A DNA stretch of 64,000 nucleotides. Origin: Proales similis. Taxonomy: Eukaryota > Rotifera > Eurotatoria > Ploima > Proalidae. A model generated the notes under the pieces. It had not been told where the DNA came from, ran no database searches, and saw only the letters and a program-made list of their open reading frames with translations. Both the position numbers and the translations under genes were made by a program. How positions within the stretch are numbered: position 1 is the first letter of the stretch; every line of letters begins with the position of its first letter. This document shows positions 14,438 to 23,190 of the stretch, one piece after another. Location: assembly GCA_019059635.1 (NCBI GenBank), contig JAGVRJ010000003.1, forward strand, positions 248,001-312,000, given 5' to 3'.

Positions 14438-15604
14438 TTACTGCTTGCAGGCGTTTTGCGGAAGAAGGCTGTCGAAAAATGGCTGACAACAAAGCCGACC
14501 GATGTAGACATCTTGAATTGAATATTCAGTCAAGTCGGAATTAGTATTATAGGTCAAGAACACATCCAGACCCGGCTCTTCAATTTTCTTGGCTACTCGT
14601 TTGCAAACGTTTGCTGCGAACGCAAAGTCAGAAAAAGACAGCGATCCGATTGTCTTCTCTTCGCTTTTTTGGTTCAGCTGATCTTTGTAGAAAAGAGCGG
14701 CTTTCTCGCATTTAGCTTGGCAGCCTATATTTTCCTTTAAGCAACCCGAGTAGCGAGTTGAAGCGGGCAAGTCCAAAGTCACAAGCGAATGAACTATTTT
14801 CTCGGTAGCATTCAGAGTCTCGATTCCGATTAGCTCACATTTGCATTCGTGTCGGCAGCAAAGTCTACCGAAGTAAGCACTAGATTGTTGGTCAGAACTG
14901 TGAATTAATGCGTAAATTTCGGCACCGGGTGGCTTCGAATCAACTATCTCTGGCCATTTGCTGCACATTCTGGTCGACAATTCAGGGTCGTTCTCGAATA
15001 GATCCATTTCCGTGTAAGGTAGTTGATGTCGATCAGCAACTAATCCAAGGCATTCAGATTTGCACAAGCTGAATTCTCGCTCACACTCGAATGATTTTCC
15101 GACCTTGGGAGTCAGTGTACTTGTCAGATTGCTCAATATGTGATGCTGGCCGCTGCTTATCAGATTCATGTGCAATTCACAGGAACAAATGGGCTGACAG
15201 CAAAGTGAGCTCAATTTCACATCCTGCCTATAGTTCGTCTCACTGAATCTTATCCGCAAGATTACACTTGCTCTTTGACTGGGACGCAGAGGAACTGCAA
15301 CCAGTGAACACAGCTTATCAGCTGCCTCGGATCCGATGAATTCATTCTTATCTGTCACCTTCTGGCCAAGGAAAGAACTGCCCTGGGAAATGCAAGCCAG
15401 CTTGCATTCGTTAGCTAATTTGATCTTGCTCGGCTCATCATCGGGCAATTTTATTGACTCAGACAAATCAACAGAAAGGAGTACGTCATTATATTCAGAC
15501 TGAGCGACATTCACCACGCATTCACATTGAGACTGAGACGATGAATCGATTGCGTTGAAAAGAAGAAAAATTGAAAACACAAGCACCGGACTTGAGAGGT
15601 TCAT
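14438..15604 (-). CDS. Secreted cysteine-repeat protein 2 (unrecognised family, three units)
   Basis: Intronless paralogue of the gene at 12734, about 388 residues from the ATG at 15604. I preferred this start to the ATG at 15634 because it puts the hydrophobic signal peptide MNLSSPVLVFSIFLLFNA first. The mature protein opens CECVVNV and carries three units ending SSLCCQPICSC, GRLCCRHECKC and the terminal GRLCCQPF. Each has the internal C-x3-C and lone C as in the other copies. Outside the cysteine frame the sequence is strongly diverged, so the duplication is not recent. An AATAAA on this strand lies near 14392, between the two converging genes. Function unknown. Confidence 0.8.
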   Translation of the reverse strand: MNLSSPVLVFSIFLLFNAIDSSSQSQCECVVNVAQSEYNDVLLSVDLSESIKLPDDEPSKIKLANECKLACISQGSSFLGQKVTDKNEFIGSEAADKLCSLVAVPLRPSQRASVILRIRFSETNYRQDVKLSSLCCQPICSCELHMNLISSGQHHILSNLTSTLTPKVGKSFECEREFSLCKSECLGLVADRHQLPYTEMDLFENDPELSTRMCSKWPEIVDSKPPGAEIYALIHSSDQQSSAYFGRLCCRHECKCELIGIETLNATEKIVHSLVTLDLPASTRYSGCLKENIGCQAKCEKAALFYKDQLNQKSEEKTIGSLSFSDFAFAANVCKRVAKKIEEPGLDVFLTYNTNSDLTEYSIQDVYIGRLCCQPFFDSLLPQNACKQ

Positions 15605-16088
15605 ATTTTTTGATACGGGCCGAAATTCGTCCAAGTTCGAATCGATCCCGACTCAGTTTTACGATCGATTGCTGGCATTTTCACACACCAACTGAGCTTG
15701 GCAAGTTTGTGGGGATTCTTCATTCGGCGCATTTTGTGCTATTGATTGCTATCGCTTAAACGATTTGAATCTCTTATCTTGCCCATTCATTATGGATTTA
15801 AAATGCTAGATTTGCAATCGGGCAAACCCGGGAAAAATTTTGATCTTATTTCTTATCTTGATAAGATCTTAATAAGCTTCAAAGCTAACATTTCATTTTA
15901 AAATTTCATTTTACAGTAAAAGGATCCAAATACTTTTTGTAGGAGAAATTTTGCATCAGTTTTGATCTCTTTCCATTTTGCACCCTAAACAGCACTCAAA
16001 CCGACTCATACCGCATTCTCTTTCTAACTGAAGCTTCAGCTTGTTTATTTAGAAAACAAAAAACAGCTAAGGCTAATGAGGCAAGGCC
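15605..16088. promoter_or_regulatory. AT-rich spacer with paired GATA-type motifs
   Basis: Non-coding spacer of about 480 bp between two minus-strand cysteine-repeat genes. It contains the 14-bp inverted arrangement CTTATCTTGATAAG (15852-15865), two GATA-type sites back to back, with further TTATCTT matches nearby (about 15775 and 15846). This is the probable promoter of paralogue 2. Nothing coding is seen. Confidence 0.35.
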
Positions 16089-17363
16089 TTAGCCAGAACC
16101 ACCCGGATAATTGAAACATCGATTAAAAGGGACTAGGCGGCCTTCGAATGGAAAGCAGCAAAGACGACCGAGGTAGAGGTCTTCGCTTGAACCGAATTGC
16201 GAATCGCTGTTCACTTGGTGTCGAAGTAAAACAACTTGCCCAGGTGGATTGATTGCTTCGCCAAATAGGTCGCAAACTCTTACCCCCGATATCGATTCTC
16301 TGAATAGATCCACATTGCTCGTAATCAAGCTGATCACTGTCTGGTTTCGAAGTAAAAGCTCGCTCTGTACGTATTCGGCCATCACCGATCGGCACATGCG
16401 CATGCAGTCTTTAATCTCGAGCTCGCATTGATACGAGCTTCGATTAAACTTGGCTACGACGTCCTTTGTCAGATCTACGAGCAATCGGTTTTTTTCTAGC
16501 TCATTTGAACTGACCAAAAGCGCATTCTGGCTCATAATCGAACAAGAACATTCTCGTTGGCAGCAAATTCTACCCAATCTAATAGCTCGGTCAACTTGGT
16601 TGGCGCCAAGTGCCATCTCGAGCACAACTTCCAAGCCAGGACTTTTTATCTGTTCTCCGTAAGCTGAACAGACAAACTCAGCCGCCATGTTCGCAGCTTG
16701 AAATAGATCTTGAGTAAACAGACTGAATTGAGTGTTGTATGACACGCTTGCTGTAGCTAGTTGAGGTCGTCTAAGATTGATGGCAGCTACATTTTTGCAC
16801 TCCGTCTCGCAGCGATCCATTTCAGATTCAAGGCAGCTGTAACTGATTGGAGGGCTTGGCAGCTGCTGGTCGAATGTGGCAAGTTGGATCGTTTGGCCAC
16901 CGTCGATGGGCTCTGTGCCACTCAGACTACATCGACATCGAGGCCTGCAGCATATATTCTCGGCCAACTGAACCGTGCCCGTTGCACATGCCGAATAGGA
17001 CCATCGGGCAGCGAGTTGGATTCCATTTGAATGGAGGCCTTGCTGTTTGATTGTCAGCTCACAGACTCGATTGCGTGCCACAGTATTCACCACTTGAGAG
17101 TTTTGGCCCAAAACAAGTCGAACACTTTGGGCACATTTGATAGCACATTCGTTTGACAATTCACATTTGAGACCGAGACCACAGTCTTCGTAAGAGTCAA
17201 GTGGCACACGTAAGCGCTTGAACTCGGTCTCGTTAGCGAATCGGTAAAGGGCTTCACAGCTGCACGTGCGTCTATTCTCCAGTCCATTGCATTTCAGCAG
17301 ACTCTCGCAGTTTATTAGGCTAAGCAGAAGAGCTGCGTAACAGACTTGCGCAAGTCGCCTCAT
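16089..17363 (-). CDS. Secreted cysteine-repeat protein 3 (unrecognised family, three units)
   Basis: Intronless, about 424 residues from the ATG at 17363 (MRRLAQVCYAALLLSLINC, a good signal peptide). An in-frame ATG at 17393 would add 10 residues before it. It has the same architecture as the genes at 12734 and 14438: an N-terminal CSCEALY segment, then units closing with ENICCRPRCRC, GRICCQRECSC and GRLCCFPF. Internal ExxxCxxxC and 'VC' cysteines are conserved. A short tail ends in GGSG. It is divergently arranged with the vWA gene starting at 17539, with about 175 bp between ATGs, so the promoters are probably shared. Role unknown; a secreted disulphide-rich structural or binding protein is likely. 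Confidence 0.8.
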   Translation of the reverse strand: MRRLAQVCYAALLLSLINCESLLKCNGLENRRTCSCEALYRFANETEFKRLRVPLDSYEDCGLGLKCELSNECAIKCAQSVRLVLGQNSQVVNTVARNRVCELTIKQQGLHSNGIQLAARWSYSACATGTVQLAENICCRPRCRCSLSGTEPIDGGQTIQLATFDQQLPSPPISYSCLESEMDRCETECKNVAAINLRRPQLATASVSYNTQFSLFTQDLFQAANMAAEFVCSAYGEQIKSPGLEVVLEMALGANQVDRAIRLGRICCQRECSCSIMSQNALLVSSNELEKNRLLVDLTKDVVAKFNRSSYQCELEIKDCMRMCRSVMAEYVQSELLLRNQTVISLITSNVDLFRESISGVRVCDLFGEAINPPGQVVLLRHQVNSDSQFGSSEDLYLGRLCCFPFEGRLVPFNRCFNYPGGSG

Positions 17364-17538
17364 TATTTTCGTTCTCAACACGTTGACTTGCAATTCGTTC
17401 GAAATGAATCTTCGTATCGATCATTTGCTTCAGTTCTCACTGGTGTTTTCGTTCTCATCAGTTCAGAATCCTTGCCATCGTTACTCGTCAGTTCGGCTCT
17501 CTCGAAACAATCGTCGAACGATACTGAGTATTAGAAAT

Positions 17539-18314: not shown

Positions 18315-18770
18315 CTACGCATGCAATTCGATTCTCCTCATTGTAAACTCAAAGTAGGCCGCGTTGGGCGGTTGTGTCAGAGAAGGTGGACTGGCTCTTC
18401 TGGTTGGACGCACCAGTGTCTTAGAAGGCGCGGGCACTACTTTGCGCGGCCGAGAATTGGACTTGCAATAATAATATCCTCCGCCAATTATGAGAACAGC
18501 AGCGCCCGCTCCGAAAAGAGCCAGATTTGTGCTGTTGAAAAACGGCTCTGGTTTTCGGGTCGTTCCAAACTCGTTGTAATCGGACGTTGTTGTTGACCTG
18601 CTCTGTCCTATCGTGCTTTCGCTGCTTACTTCATAATCTTCAGTTGAAAACTGCTCGTCAGTGCTTTCCTCGTTCCAGGCGTCGTCCATCTCGATGGTGT
18701 CCGTCATCAGACCTGACCCGATTAAAATCATTTCGAAAAAAAGTAATCCGAAAAGTTTGGTGCGATCCAT
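18315..18770 (-). CDS. Small type I membrane protein
   Basis: About 151 residues from the ATG at 18770 (MDRTKLFGLLFFEMILIGSG, a signal peptide); an ATG at 18788 adds six residues. The acidic, Ser/Thr-rich ectodomain (DTIEMDDAWNEESTDEQF onward) resembles a short mucin-like stalk. It is followed by a transmembrane helix (LALFGAGAAVLIIGGGYYYC) and a basic, proline-rich cytoplasmic tail of about 50 residues. No known domain. It is one of the run of intronless secreted or membrane genes here. An AATAAA on this strand lies at 18239-18244. Confidence 0.65.
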   Translation of the reverse strand: MDRTKLFGLLFFEMILIGSGLMTDTIEMDDAWNEESTDEQFSTEDYEVSSESTIGQSRSTTTSDYNEFGTTRKPEPFFNSTNLALFGAGAAVLIIGGGYYYCKSNSRPRKVVPAPSKTLVRPTRRASPPSLTQPPNAAYFEFTMRRIELHA

Positions 18771-19157
18771 TTTTTTTATTTTGTTCACTTTTGAGGCTCA
18801 CTTTGTCCAAATGTGGCGAGAAATTGAAGCAATTTGTACTCGAGAGGGCCGAGTCATGATGACGGTTGCCAGGCTGTAAAAGTTTTAAATGCTCACTTGC
18901 GCTTCAATAGAGCTCTATCGACGCAAATAGAAGCAGTTCTCATTTTTCAATCAGTTAATAATTCGTTCGTTTTAGGCCAGTTCTAAGTCAACTGAACTCA
19001 TTTCAATCTTGCACTTTTCGATGATGATAGTAGAGTGAAGCGCTTATCTCACGTGACCATTCAAGAACAACAACTCGCGAGAACAAAAACACCGCTAAAA
19101 AAAAATTCATTCACAACGAGAAGGAGAGCTCCAAGTCGATTGAAAGAAAGCAGTGAG

Positions 19158-21992
19158 ATGGAAAAGTGTTTAATAGCGTTCGGTCTGGTTATAGTTTTGC
19201 TCAACGGCCGCTCAGGACTGAACGCTCAACAGTTAGCTATCAGACGAATAAGTGAATGCCCGACCGGAGCACCTGAGCAGTGCGAATGCTTTAGCTCAAG
19301 TTACTTGAATTGCGAAGGCTTTCTGAGCTTTGCTCAGCTGGACTTTAGTCAAGCAAGTTGGGCACCGTCTCAGTTTGACTTGATTGAGCTCGATCCGAGT
19401 GGACCGGCAAGTCTTGACGGCCCCCTGAATTGGAGTTGGCTACCGATCAGGAACGGAACTCGCTTCAAGATATCCCGCCTGTCCTCGCTCGAGTTTGAGT
19501 CAAATCCACTTGGGAGTGTGGCCAATGCTCAATTCGATCTCGAACTCGCCAATTCAACTCTCGCATTTTACCTATCTGGTCAGCAATTGTCGGAAAGATG
19601 CAATCTGGTAGCAACACAGACAACAAGGCGGCCTTTCTTCAGCTCGTTCAGAAAAATCGAGCTCAGTGCCACTGTGCGCTTCGACGGACTTGTTTGTCCG
19701 CTCGTGTTCAAAAACAGTCGAATTGAGCGTCTGACAATTTCCAGTTTGAACAAACAGAATCTGCTGAGCTTCCTCAGACTCTCCGGCTCAACAAGAGATG
19801 AAGTGAACGCTTCGATTGCTCGACTCGAGATTGAGCACAGCCAAATTGAGACGCTCTCTACGTCTCTGCTCAGCGCCGAGGTGTTCAAGGACATGAGAGA
19901 GCTGATAATCACCGGCTCAAGAATCGACGCAATCCAAAGCGATTTGTTCACGAGTTTCAGTCGATTAAATCAAATTCTCTTTTTTCTGGACAACATTAGC
20001 GAGCTCTTGAAGAGCAACACAAGCTGGATCGCCTCACTCAACTACCAAGCTCCGTCCACAAACCATTTGCTGCTCGGCCTGATTGACTCGAGCCAAAGGC
20101 TTGAGCTCGGCGACGACCAATTCTGTTCGTTTGTTGATTTTCCGCACCAGAAGCGAGTCTATGCATATATTAAGAGTCGACCGGCGCTCAACTGCACCTG
20201 CACTCTGGTGTGGCTGCTTCAAAACTGGCAAGAGAGTCCGTTCGCCGACACCATTCTTAGCTCCGATTCTACCTACGACTGCATAATTGACAAGAACCGT
20301 TTCGACCAGCTGTTCAGCAGATGCGATTTCGGTTCGCGAATAGACAAGTGCCTGGGAGTCACCACTGTGGAGAGCACAATCGAAGAAACAAAGAGCACAG
20401 AAGAAGCAATTGAGGAGACAACACAAGAAAGCGTTGAGATTGAACAGCCCGAGCCGTTTCCCATTTGGGCGATTTTTGCTGCCCTGCTCGTACTGCTTGT
20501 TCTTGTGGGTGCCGGGTATTTTCTATTGCCCAAACGAGCTCGTTCAAAAGTGAGATCGACAGATGAATCGGAGCAAATTGGCCAAGAAAAAAGAATCCCG
20601 CTCGAGTTGGTCGACTACGATCAGCAGGATGACAAGCGCTTTGTTGGCTCATTGAGTGGAGCAATGCACAAAATAGAACTCATTAAACCGAAGGCAAAAA
20701 AGATCGGCCAGATTCCCAAGACTTCACGTTCACTTCGATCGGTGATTGAGAAAGAGCTGAAGCGGCTGATTGACGCCAACTTGATTGTGAAGAGCTACGA
20801 GACCATCATGTTCTCGAATGTGATCGTCTGCCTGGAAGAGAGTCGAATGCTGGTCGACTATCGTCTGCTCAATCAGCAAAGTAGACGAATGCCTGCTTGG
20901 CCCAGTCTCCGGCTTGCTTTGGATCAATTGGCAAACTTTGAGTTCTTTTCTACGCTCTACTTCAACTTTGGCTACAATCAAATCACACTGGACGAGAACT
21001 CGTCCCGATTGACTACGTTCAGCACACACCAGGGCTCTTTCAGATTCAAATTTATGCCTCAAGGTCTTTTAAACGCCGATCGACTATTCGCGGCCACCAT
21101 GCAAGAGCTGCTCTCATCCTCTTTGATCGACTGCTGCTTGGTCTATCACGGCGGACTAGTCGTCCACAGCAGGAGCCAGTCAGAGCATGAACAACACCTC
21201 AAACGTGTTCTAACCGCCGTCTCTTCGTCCGGATTTGTGCTCGATAAGCAAAAAAGCAAGCTCAATATGAACGAGATTATCTTGTTGAACAATCGCATCA
21301 GCCACAATCAAATTCAGTTGAATCATTCGTCCATGGACGTGATCGACAAATGGCTTGGCTGGAATCAAACAGACCCGGCCGAGTTTCACAATTTTTTCAA
21401 TCAGTTCAACCAGTTGAGCAAAGCCCATGAACGAATGCTAAAGGAGTATCTTCTCACCCAGGACTCACTGACTCAGGTCGAGCTTGCAAAGCTGAAGAAA
21501 AAGCAGCACGACATCGGTCTCGTGTTGTACGAGGCATTGCGCAAAGAGATGAGCGTCGATCTTCGCACTAAACTAGAGCCTATCGACTCTGTGGTCACAA
21601 TCTACTTCAGTGCCAGCGTGCAAAACTTTGCCTGTGTGCTCGAGCTTGAACATGGCGCAATGATCGGAGGCCGAGGCAAAGTAGAAATAGTGGCTATGGC
21701 CCAATCTCCGCTCGATGCGATCGAGCTCAGCCCGGCTGAACAGAATGAGAACTCAAGAAAGCAAATCGCCTGCCTTAACTGGGCCCTGCAGCTCTTCAAG
21801 CCGCTGCTCATGGACAAGAGAATCAAGCTGGCCTTTGAGCCGCACAAATACCTGAACCAGCTGGAGGCGCGACTCGAGGAACAAAATCTCGACGCGACTG
21901 TGCTCCGTCTAGTCGAGCTCATCGCTGATCTAGACGTCTGCTTTGTGAACCGTAATCGGCACAAACTTGTTTCATTGTTGAACAAGTTCTAA
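19158..21992 (+). CDS. LRR-type transmembrane receptor fused to a catalytically dead Ty3/gypsy-type RT/RNase H module
   Basis: A single uninterrupted frame of 944 residues from the ATG at 19158, chosen because a signal peptide follows (MEKCLIAFGLVIVLLN); the frame is open to 19035. Residues 25-430 form an ectodomain with an LRR N-cap-like CPTGAPEQCECF, degenerate LRR-like hydrophobic repeats and an LRR C-cap-like cysteine set (LNCTCTLVWLLQNW). An acidic Thr-rich stalk and one transmembrane helix (about 435-456, IWAIFAALLVLLVLVGAGYF) follow. The cytoplasmic part has the order of a Ty3/gypsy polymerase: connection around 525, VDYRLLN, FSTLYFNFGYNQI, FKFMPQGLLNADRLF, then an RNase H-like segment (about 810-940) with ELSPAEQNE. 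Catalytic positions are lost: Tyr601 and Gly665-Gly666 replace the RT aspartates, and the RNase H acidic residues are also absent. No frameshift, LTR, gag or integrase is visible. I infer a domesticated domain used as a scaffold. Confidence 0.78.
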   Translation: MEKCLIAFGLVIVLLNGRSGLNAQQLAIRRISECPTGAPEQCECFSSSYLNCEGFLSFAQLDFSQASWAPSQFDLIELDPSGPASLDGPLNWSWLPIRNGTRFKISRLSSLEFESNPLGSVANAQFDLELANSTLAFYLSGQQLSERCNLVATQTTRRPFFSSFRKIELSATVRFDGLVCPLVFKNSRIERLTISSLNKQNLLSFLRLSGSTRDEVNASIARLEIEHSQIETLSTSLLSAEVFKDMRELIITGSRIDAIQSDLFTSFSRLNQILFFLDNISELLKSNTSWIASLNYQAPSTNHLLLGLIDSSQRLELGDDQFCSFVDFPHQKRVYAYIKSRPALNCTCTLVWLLQNWQESPFADTILSSDSTYDCIIDKNRFDQLFSRCDFGSRIDKCLGVTTVESTIEETKSTEEAIEETTQESVEIEQPEPFPIWAIFAALLVLLVLVGAGYFLLPKRARSKVRSTDESEQIGQEKRIPLELVDYDQQDDKRFVGSLSGAMHKIELIKPKAKKIGQIPKTSRSLRSVIEKELKRLIDANLIVKSYETIMFSNVIVCLEESRMLVDYRLLNQQSRRMPAWPSLRLALDQLANFEFFSTLYFNFGYNQITLDENSSRLTTFSTHQGSFRFKFMPQGLLNADRLFAATMQELLSSSLIDCCLVYHGGLVVHSRSQSEHEQHLKRVLTAVSSSGFVLDKQKSKLNMNEIILLNNRISHNQIQLNHSSMDVIDKWLGWNQTDPAEFHNFFNQFNQLSKAHERMLKEYLLTQDSLTQVELAKLKKKQHDIGLVLYEALRKEMSVDLRTKLEPIDSVVTIYFSASVQNFACVLELEHGAMIGGRGKVEIVAMAQSPLDAIELSPAEQNENSRKQIACLNWALQLFKPLLMDKRIKLAFEPHKYLNQLEARLEEQNLDATVLRLVELIADLDVCFVNRNRHKLVSLLNKF

Positions 21993-22246
21993 TCCGCTTC
22001 AATCAGTCAAACAAGCCTTGAAGTACCTGTCTAGTTGGCCAAAAGAAAGCGCAATAATTTCCCTAAAATGAAATTCTTTTATTTTAATTAATTTCTTAAA
22101 ATTTTATTTTCTGGCCGCCGTTGATCGATTCTCAACGGGGCAGATGGCGAAATCTATTCTCGGCTCGGTTGACTTTAGAACAGGACAGGATTCATGTAAA
22201 ATTCAAATTATATCTGCAAATGCGACAAGCGGCTCTTTATCGGCTA

Positions 22247-22305
22247 TTTATGCTAATTAATGCGCTAATCGCTTTGAATTTGAAACAGCTTTCTGATTAT
22301 AAATA
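22247..22305 (+). promoter_or_regulatory. Octamer plus TATA promoter of ncRNA locus B
   Basis: TTTATGCTAATTAATG (22247-22262) matches the element at 10954 exactly. It is followed by TATAAATA (22298-22305). The spacing is 51 bp, against 57 bp at locus A. Confidence 0.55.
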
Positions 22306-22324
22306 GCCAAGGGAGCCCTTAGAA

Positions 22325-22455
22325 ACTCACTATCTTTCAGAGATATCAAAAAAAGTAGGTTCCCTTATCCCTTTACCCAACTGCTGCCATGACGAAAGCT
22401 TCGGTTTGATCCGTGTCGGATCTATCCACACCGATGCAGAGCTGCAGTTTTTACT
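22325..22455 (+). ncRNA. Candidate structured ncRNA B with kink-turn-like core
   Basis: Related to locus A at 11.0 kb. Shared points are the promoter, a donor-like AAAAAAA|GTAGGTT 57 bp from the TATA start, and the core CTGCTGCCATGACGA. CTGCTGC (22381-22387) pairs with GCTGCAG (22441-22447) with one mismatch. ATGACGA (22389-22395) faces CAGA (22437-22440) as a kink-turn. The hairpin arms TCGGT/ACCGA and GATCC/GGATC lie between. A T5 run (22448-22452) could be a Pol III terminator or part of an Sm-like site. The segment ACTATCTTTCAGAGAT (22329-22344) recalls U3 box A, but the RNA looks too short for U3. Identity unresolved; ends approximate. Confidence 0.45.
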
Positions 22456-23190
22456 CAAAACAAAAGAAGTTTACAAGCCAAGCGAGCTCAATTGTTTAGA
22501 GGTGGTTGACTTAAATGTCTTCCTTTTAAATTTACAAACAGTTTTGAGCCAACAGAGAACGGTGGAGGCTGTGTGGTAGAAAGACTTGCGTAACGGTTGT
22601 TAAGCTAATCCGCACGCACAAGCCAAGGTTTCTACATGCCGGCCCGATGGCGAGTGTTCTTGTTCAAATAGCAACCTTCGGAGTTGTAAAAATCTTTTGA
22701 CATGTGTCAACACCCAAGGGAGACAAGCGAGAGTGTTGATTGCGCTCTTTTGATTTGTTTTAGGCGAGTGCGCGCTGCTATTAAACTACCGCGCGCACAC
22801 ACACACACATACACACACTAAGATGGTTAAAGTGATTTGTGAAGCCCGTTGAAATTCGATTTTGTCGGCATAATTCTTGGCCCCTTGCACAACGAGCAGG
22901 GCGTTACGCGAGTTTGTTGTCGTTGGTTACGCTTCAAACACAAAACTAATAAGAAAAGGCCATTCTCTGTCATTTAAATTTTAGATGCAGTTGATTTTTA
23001 GAGAGTTATTTTTTTCTAGCGAGCACAATACTGAGAGCGCACGACTCGATAAGCGTCAGATTCGAGTGTTTTCCCCACTCGCAGTTTTCTCAACCCGACT
23101 TGGTCTCTAGGCAATTCGGTCGGCCTTGGGCCAAAGCATCAGGCTTGAACTAAATAGAGTCTTGTTTGCCAAGCTCGCTTGCTCGTCAAT
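22456..23190. other. Intergenic with a (CA)n microsatellite
   Basis: About 730 bp upstream of the articulin-like gene. It holds an alternating CA-type tract at about 22794-22818. No open frame or RNA gene is recognised. It probably contains the promoter and 5' UTR of the gene at 23191. Confidence 0.5.

Follow-up and report, generated by a model that had tools for sequence, protein, structure and literature searches.

A single open reading frame of 944 codons, free of internal stops, occupies positions 19158-21992 on the plus strand of the window, the 64,000-nucleotide stretch of DNA analysed here as sequence from a compact animal genome assembly (32.7 Mb). Translation is taken to start at 19158, where the first ATG in phase occurs within an open frame of 998 codons, and the predicted product joins a leader, an LRR-type ectodomain, a stalk and one hydrophobic segment (residues 439-457, the only one in a crude hydrophobicity scan) to a region related to RT-RNase H (Table 1). 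A helix at residues 437-455 is also present in an otherwise low-confidence AlphaFold2 model. This confirms the layout of the original prediction, which had placed a signal peptide (here read by eye), an LRR ectodomain, one transmembrane helix and an RT-RNase H region in one intact 944-codon frame. A misassembly at the receptor/RT join may be conceivable in the one assembly examined, and no sign points to one.

Table 1. Features of the chimeric gene, with positions in the window
Feature	Positions	Strand	Basis
Complete frame of the chimeric gene (944 aa), including the stop	19158..21992	+	no internal stop; first in-frame ATG
Signal peptide, ~residues 1-23	19158..19226	+	read by eye
LRR-type ectodomain, residues 34-398	19257..20351	+	family alignment; profile matches to VLR, TLR3 and LGR5 structures
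Acidic Thr/Glu-rich stalk, residues 399-438	20352..20471	+	sequence
Transmembrane helix, residues 439-457, then basic stretch	20472..20528	+	crude hydrophobicity scan
Juxtamembrane linker, residues 458-503, with one donor-like GTGAG (20550)	20529..20666	+	sequence
RT fingers-palm region, residues 504-730	20667..21347	+	Pfam, Ty3 RT alignment, structure comparison
Connection and RNase H region, residues 731-944, to RNase H C-terminus	21348..21989	+	weak profile match, alignment, predicted fold
Tyr601 replacing motif A catalytic Asp	20958..20960	+	Ty3 RT alignment, multiple alignment
Gly665-Gly666 replacing catalytic Asp-Asp pair	21150..21155	+	Ty3 RT alignment, multiple alignment
Ser818 replacing first RNase H Asp	21609..21611	+	multiple alignment
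Gln869 replacing RNase H Glu	21762..21764	+	multiple alignment
Pro895 replacing second RNase H Asp (Glu894 adjoins)	21840..21842	+	multiple alignment
Ser939 replacing last RNase H Asp	21972..21974	+	multiple alignment

The window also encodes chitin-binding and EGF domains, in keeping with an animal. Head to head with the chimeric gene lies a 157-codon frame (18315-18788, minus strand) with a leader, an acidic stalk and one hydrophobic segment, for which no convincing similarity to the chimeric gene product was found. Two adjacent cysteine-rich, probably secreted proteins are encoded at 14438-15634 and 16089-17393 (both minus strand); they are 26% identical over 405 columns (E = 5.8e-23), and neither gave a Pfam match.

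The ectodomain begins with the cysteines C34, C42, C44 and C52, continues through degenerate LRRs and ends with C346, C348 and C375, the two groups being what we take to be the N-terminal and C-terminal caps, respectively. As a single sequence it gave no Pfam LRR match, and no relative was found in the protein database among the ~8000 best word-sharing candidates scored per search. A profile of ten family ectodomains matches LRR structures, with the best E-value for variable lymphocyte receptor C (4.5e-6), followed by TLR3 (5.5e-6) and LGR5 (6.1e-6). An AlphaFold2 model of the ectodomain from its single sequence was poor (pLDDT 44.3) and was set aside. Searched against its own genome, the whole protein matches at least 43 places: its own locus, 16 places similar to the RT part and 26 similar to the ectodomain; the total is a lower bound, since 48 of 135 first-look candidates were scored. 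None of the at least 26 ectodomain places listed also matches the RT part, and 9 of the 26 sit in frames that span 416-515 codons. Among the places listed, the top-scoring paralogue is 32% identical (E = 9.8e-47). In the nine paralogue frames that were read, a leader precedes a related ectodomain, and the product ends in a hydrophobic segment or a short tail. Judged by these similarities, the front half of the 944-aa protein is a member of a host gene family, its cysteine-capped LRR ectodomain being related to those of this genome's single-pass LRR receptors.

The LRR ectodomain of a paralogue also matches 40 distinct open frames, 734-880 codons long (loci L045-L057, at C2:2.09-2.13 Mb, C2:2.23-2.25 Mb, C3:1.14-1.16 Mb and others). 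The family members scanned contain one to six hydrophobic stretches each, many of them with several in the C-terminal half, and no Pfam 7TM match was found in five of the 734-880-codon frames. These loci suggest that an LRR receptor family with multi-pass tails has expanded.

Behind the membrane segment, residues 578-703 are recognised by Pfam RVT_1 (E = 2.3e-13) and residues 504-719 align with the solved Ty3 RT (E = 3.3e-17), values that are far above chance and bear out the Ty3/gypsy affinity proposed originally. The gene is also among the 38 matches of a genome-wide RVT_1 search (E = 3.0e-13), and the best match of its RT part to a Ty3/gypsy element of its own genome has an E-value of 2.0e-20. 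For the RNase H half, sequence similarity taken by itself is weak: its match to PF17917 (E = 0.12) falls under the curated cut-off, and it scores 7.4 bits on a profile built from 11 intact elements, where the best of 1000 self-shuffles reached 6.7. The tail alignment, guided by RT homologues, stays colinear up to where the RNase H domain ends. Structure prediction, proposed earlier as a test, returned an RT-RNase H fold, and the RT region of the AlphaFold2 model superposes on the MMLV RT fragment 4m94 at 2.1 Å over 236 residues; this support is partly circular, because RTs made up the input alignment and the fold stands without a control. By descent, the tail is most readily identified as a Ty3/gypsy RT-RNase H, less distinctly so in its RNase H part.

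A review of Ty3 RT (PMC5371799) gives D151, D213 and D214 as polymerase residues and D358, E401, D426 and D469 as RNase H residues, and describes D151N, D213N, D358N, E401Q and D426N as each abolishing activity. The tail keeps none of these seven catalytic acidic residues, each of which is present in 11 of 11 intact elements. The two polymerase sites were placed by the Ty3 alignment and the RNase H positions through conserved columns of the multiple alignment, and both losses read from the letters alone, that of the RT aspartates (Tyr601; Gly665-Gly666) and that of the RNase H acidic residues, held up on alignment, which puts Ser818, Gln869, Pro895 and Ser939 at the latter positions. Since no metal-binding residues are left, the tail is probably unable to act as a polymerase or nuclease. 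In the multiple alignment, the plant elements P0004, P0006 and P0007, database Ty3/gypsy proteins annotated with a second RNase H domain, are without the first RNase H Asp and keep the RT Asp residues. Loss of RNase H residues alone is therefore no proof of domestication, and the claim rests on the RT and RNase H losses together.

The RT part of the tail is 23-27% identical to five RTs of its own genome, which share 34-45% mutually, and its RNase H part is 11-19% identical to five such elements, which share 37-58%. The branch of the tail (2.49) is by far the longest of 16 in the tree (median 0.86). Because of this low identity and long branch, the capture is likely to be old or the tail fast-evolving. 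The tree does not place it firmly, support for its neighbour P0003 being weak (74/55). The genome contains long open Ty3/gypsy frames; some, of 1555-2100 codons without stops, form score-identical pairs (C5:653183 and C15:524753; C1:2465836 and C9:724296), so that recent Ty3/gypsy activity is likely. An active resident element would be the target if the tail were an interference factor that pairs with such an RT at the membrane and poisons it, and the asymmetric homodimer in which Ty3 RT works is described as having one of its polymerase sites occluded (PMC5371799). We nevertheless consider this very improbable, the least probable of the alternatives, given the low identity of the tail to the resident RTs examined and the unexplained location on a receptor. 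In addition, the two dimer arginines of Ty3 fall on Gln and Ser in the Ty3 alignment (counted by hand); these arginines are, however, not general among these Ty3/gypsy elements.

To gauge conservation, 11 of 18 non-tail alignment rows were used as a yardstick, leaving out L022 (a fragment of L005 type) and six partial, gapped or double-RNase H rows (P0004-P0008 and P0013). Of 58 near-invariant columns the tail has kept 24, against 74-97% for intact elements left out one at a time. Among the non-catalytic columns 24 of 51 are kept and 27 changed, with the RT part keeping 16 of 23 (7 changed) and the connection-RNase H part having changed 20 of 28, which indicates that much of the tail has changed since capture. 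Given the overall loss rate, losing 7 of 7 catalytic residues would by arithmetic be a ~1% event.

The low identity of the RNase H half is what would be expected of a young or decaying fusion without function, whose tail drifts and is stop-free by luck. In neutral simulations (substitutions only, from an ancestor assumed to carry consensus residues), evolution to 53% amino-acid change produced a mean of 13.5 stops, and stop-free runs numbered 0 of 300 at 53%, 0 of 300 at 27% and 16 of 300 at 10% change. The earlier argument from the stop-free frame is thus strengthened, an open tail being unlikely under neutral drift. Hydrophobic-core columns are 85% kept over the whole tail, a value matched by 2 of 200 neutral runs, and 80% kept in the RNase H half, which none of 200 neutral runs reached (mean 59%). 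The RT half gives no selection signal on this test, since its core (89% kept against a neutral 85%) was equalled by 53 of 200 runs, and to that extent it fits drift. Third-codon-position GC is 0.63, compared with 0.42 and 0.40 in flanking DNA, and synonymous codon usage is host-like over element-like by +54.5 log units (0.122 per codon; 0.051-0.117 in the five paralogues tested), both as in a host gene. We therefore regard a drifting fusion as improbable, ahead only of pairing with an active RT, and infer selection on the tail from the simulations. Three marks of a domesticated gene are found together here: a single copy (no second copy of the 1393-base tail DNA was found in the genome), selection on the coding frame as judged by simulation, and loss of mobility. 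No orthologue was found in the protein database among the ~8000 best word-sharing candidates scored per search.

Translation across the join is the best explanation for selection on a tail frame that continues the phase of the receptor. This bears on whether receptor and RT part form one working protein at all. Most transcripts might instead stop, or be spliced, downstream of the transmembrane segment, or translation of the tail might begin separately at its own start. The juxtamembrane GTGAG is the only donor-like site in a GT[AG]AG scan of the frame, a Met at residue 503 stands directly before the RT homology, and the paralogues inspected have short tails, all of which would suit separate products. 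Early polyadenylation is possible as well, because the frame contains an ATTAAA at 20682, and in the 1.3 kb 3′ of the stop a single AATAAA/ATTAAA was found, at 22780. However, no stop separates the two parts, and no acceptor-like partner (YAG after at least 80% pyrimidine, a crude rule) was found in 20581-22400. Separate products are in our estimate distinctly unlikely, and rank above a drifting fusion.

If the tail is selected without catalysis, it could still bind nucleic acid, with RNA or DNA retained in the dead polymerase cleft beneath the membrane, for instance in a sensing role. The RT half remains basic (+7, within the +1 to +11 of the 11 intact elements) and keeps R563, Q608, T619, G636 and K699, which are near-invariant in those elements. 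The connection-RNase H half, by contrast, has lost its basic charge (-1 compared with +2 to +11) along with the 20 near-invariant non-catalytic residues noted above. The nucleic-acid-binding option of the original prediction thus keeps some footing in the RT half and is weakened for the RNase H half; it is the first of the rival explanations, and unlikely.

The reading we favour, at somewhat better than even confidence, is that the RT-RNase H part has been domesticated as a non-catalytic scaffold and is the cytoplasmic tail of an LRR receptor. The sequence itself shows the order of the parts, their homology and the absence of all seven catalytic residues; the topology, the single mRNA and the scaffold role are proposed. 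Under this proposal, a host single-pass LRR receptor-like gene would have captured a Ty3/gypsy RT-RNase H segment in frame, so that the LRR domain lies outside and a tail of ~440 residues with the RT-RNase H fold lies in the cytoplasm. A cytoplasmic location is probable because of the leader and the positive charges just inside the helix. No longer copying or cutting nucleic acid, the tail would act as a folded, non-enzymatic scaffold that holds or pairs with partner proteins, like the non-catalytic subunits or cores of other RT proteins. A folded and possibly pairing scaffold is favoured by the absence of the metal residues, the lost RNase H charge, the Ty3 dimer and the precedent of Prp8. 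That an RT-RNase H fold without either activity is the effector or scaffold tail of a surface LRR receptor, and that a polymerase fold has so been recruited into transmembrane signalling, is a more tentative step, to which we give a little less than an even chance.

The nearest parallels found are Prp8 and plant NLRs with integrated RVT-type domains. Prp8, in the spliceosome core, is described as an RT-derived core that has lost its catalytic residues and acts as a non-catalytic scaffold (PMC5718144). It is an analogy only, since it is of a group II intron-like RT lineage, nuclear and RNA-bound, without a receptor or membrane. Plant NLR immune receptors, which bear LRRs, are listed with RT-associated domains such as RVT_3, RVT_2 and zf-RVT in a paper whose authors claim no function for them (PMC4759884); unlike the 944-aa protein, they are cytosolic rather than single-pass surface proteins with LRRs. 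Animal single-pass LRR receptors (the paralogues, with TLR and LRRTM as distant kin) share the signal peptide, the cysteine-capped LRR ectodomain, the stalk and the one transmembrane helix, but the paralogues inspected stop shortly beyond the membrane segment or carry a short tail, whereas this protein continues into RT-RNase H. Ty3/gypsy (Metaviridae) RT-RNase H proteins, such as Ty3 RT (4ol8), share the RT homology of the tail; they differ in having the catalytic residues, whereas the 944-aa frame itself contains no gag, protease or integrase and places the tail behind a host receptor and transmembrane helix. In literature searches, judged from their listings, no surface receptor with an RT tail was found.

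The gene is a host-transposon chimera with an unusual partner. That host genes often take up transposon parts, and that dead RT cores such as Prp8 exist, is known already; if the inner domain of a surface receptor is indeed an RT-RNase H module, the fold has been put to a new use, and the protein is a natural case of a polymerase selected for its shape and not for catalysis. Apparently intact Ty3/gypsy elements are present in the genome as well, so that whether the captured RT signals, scaffolds or restrains its relatives can be asked directly.
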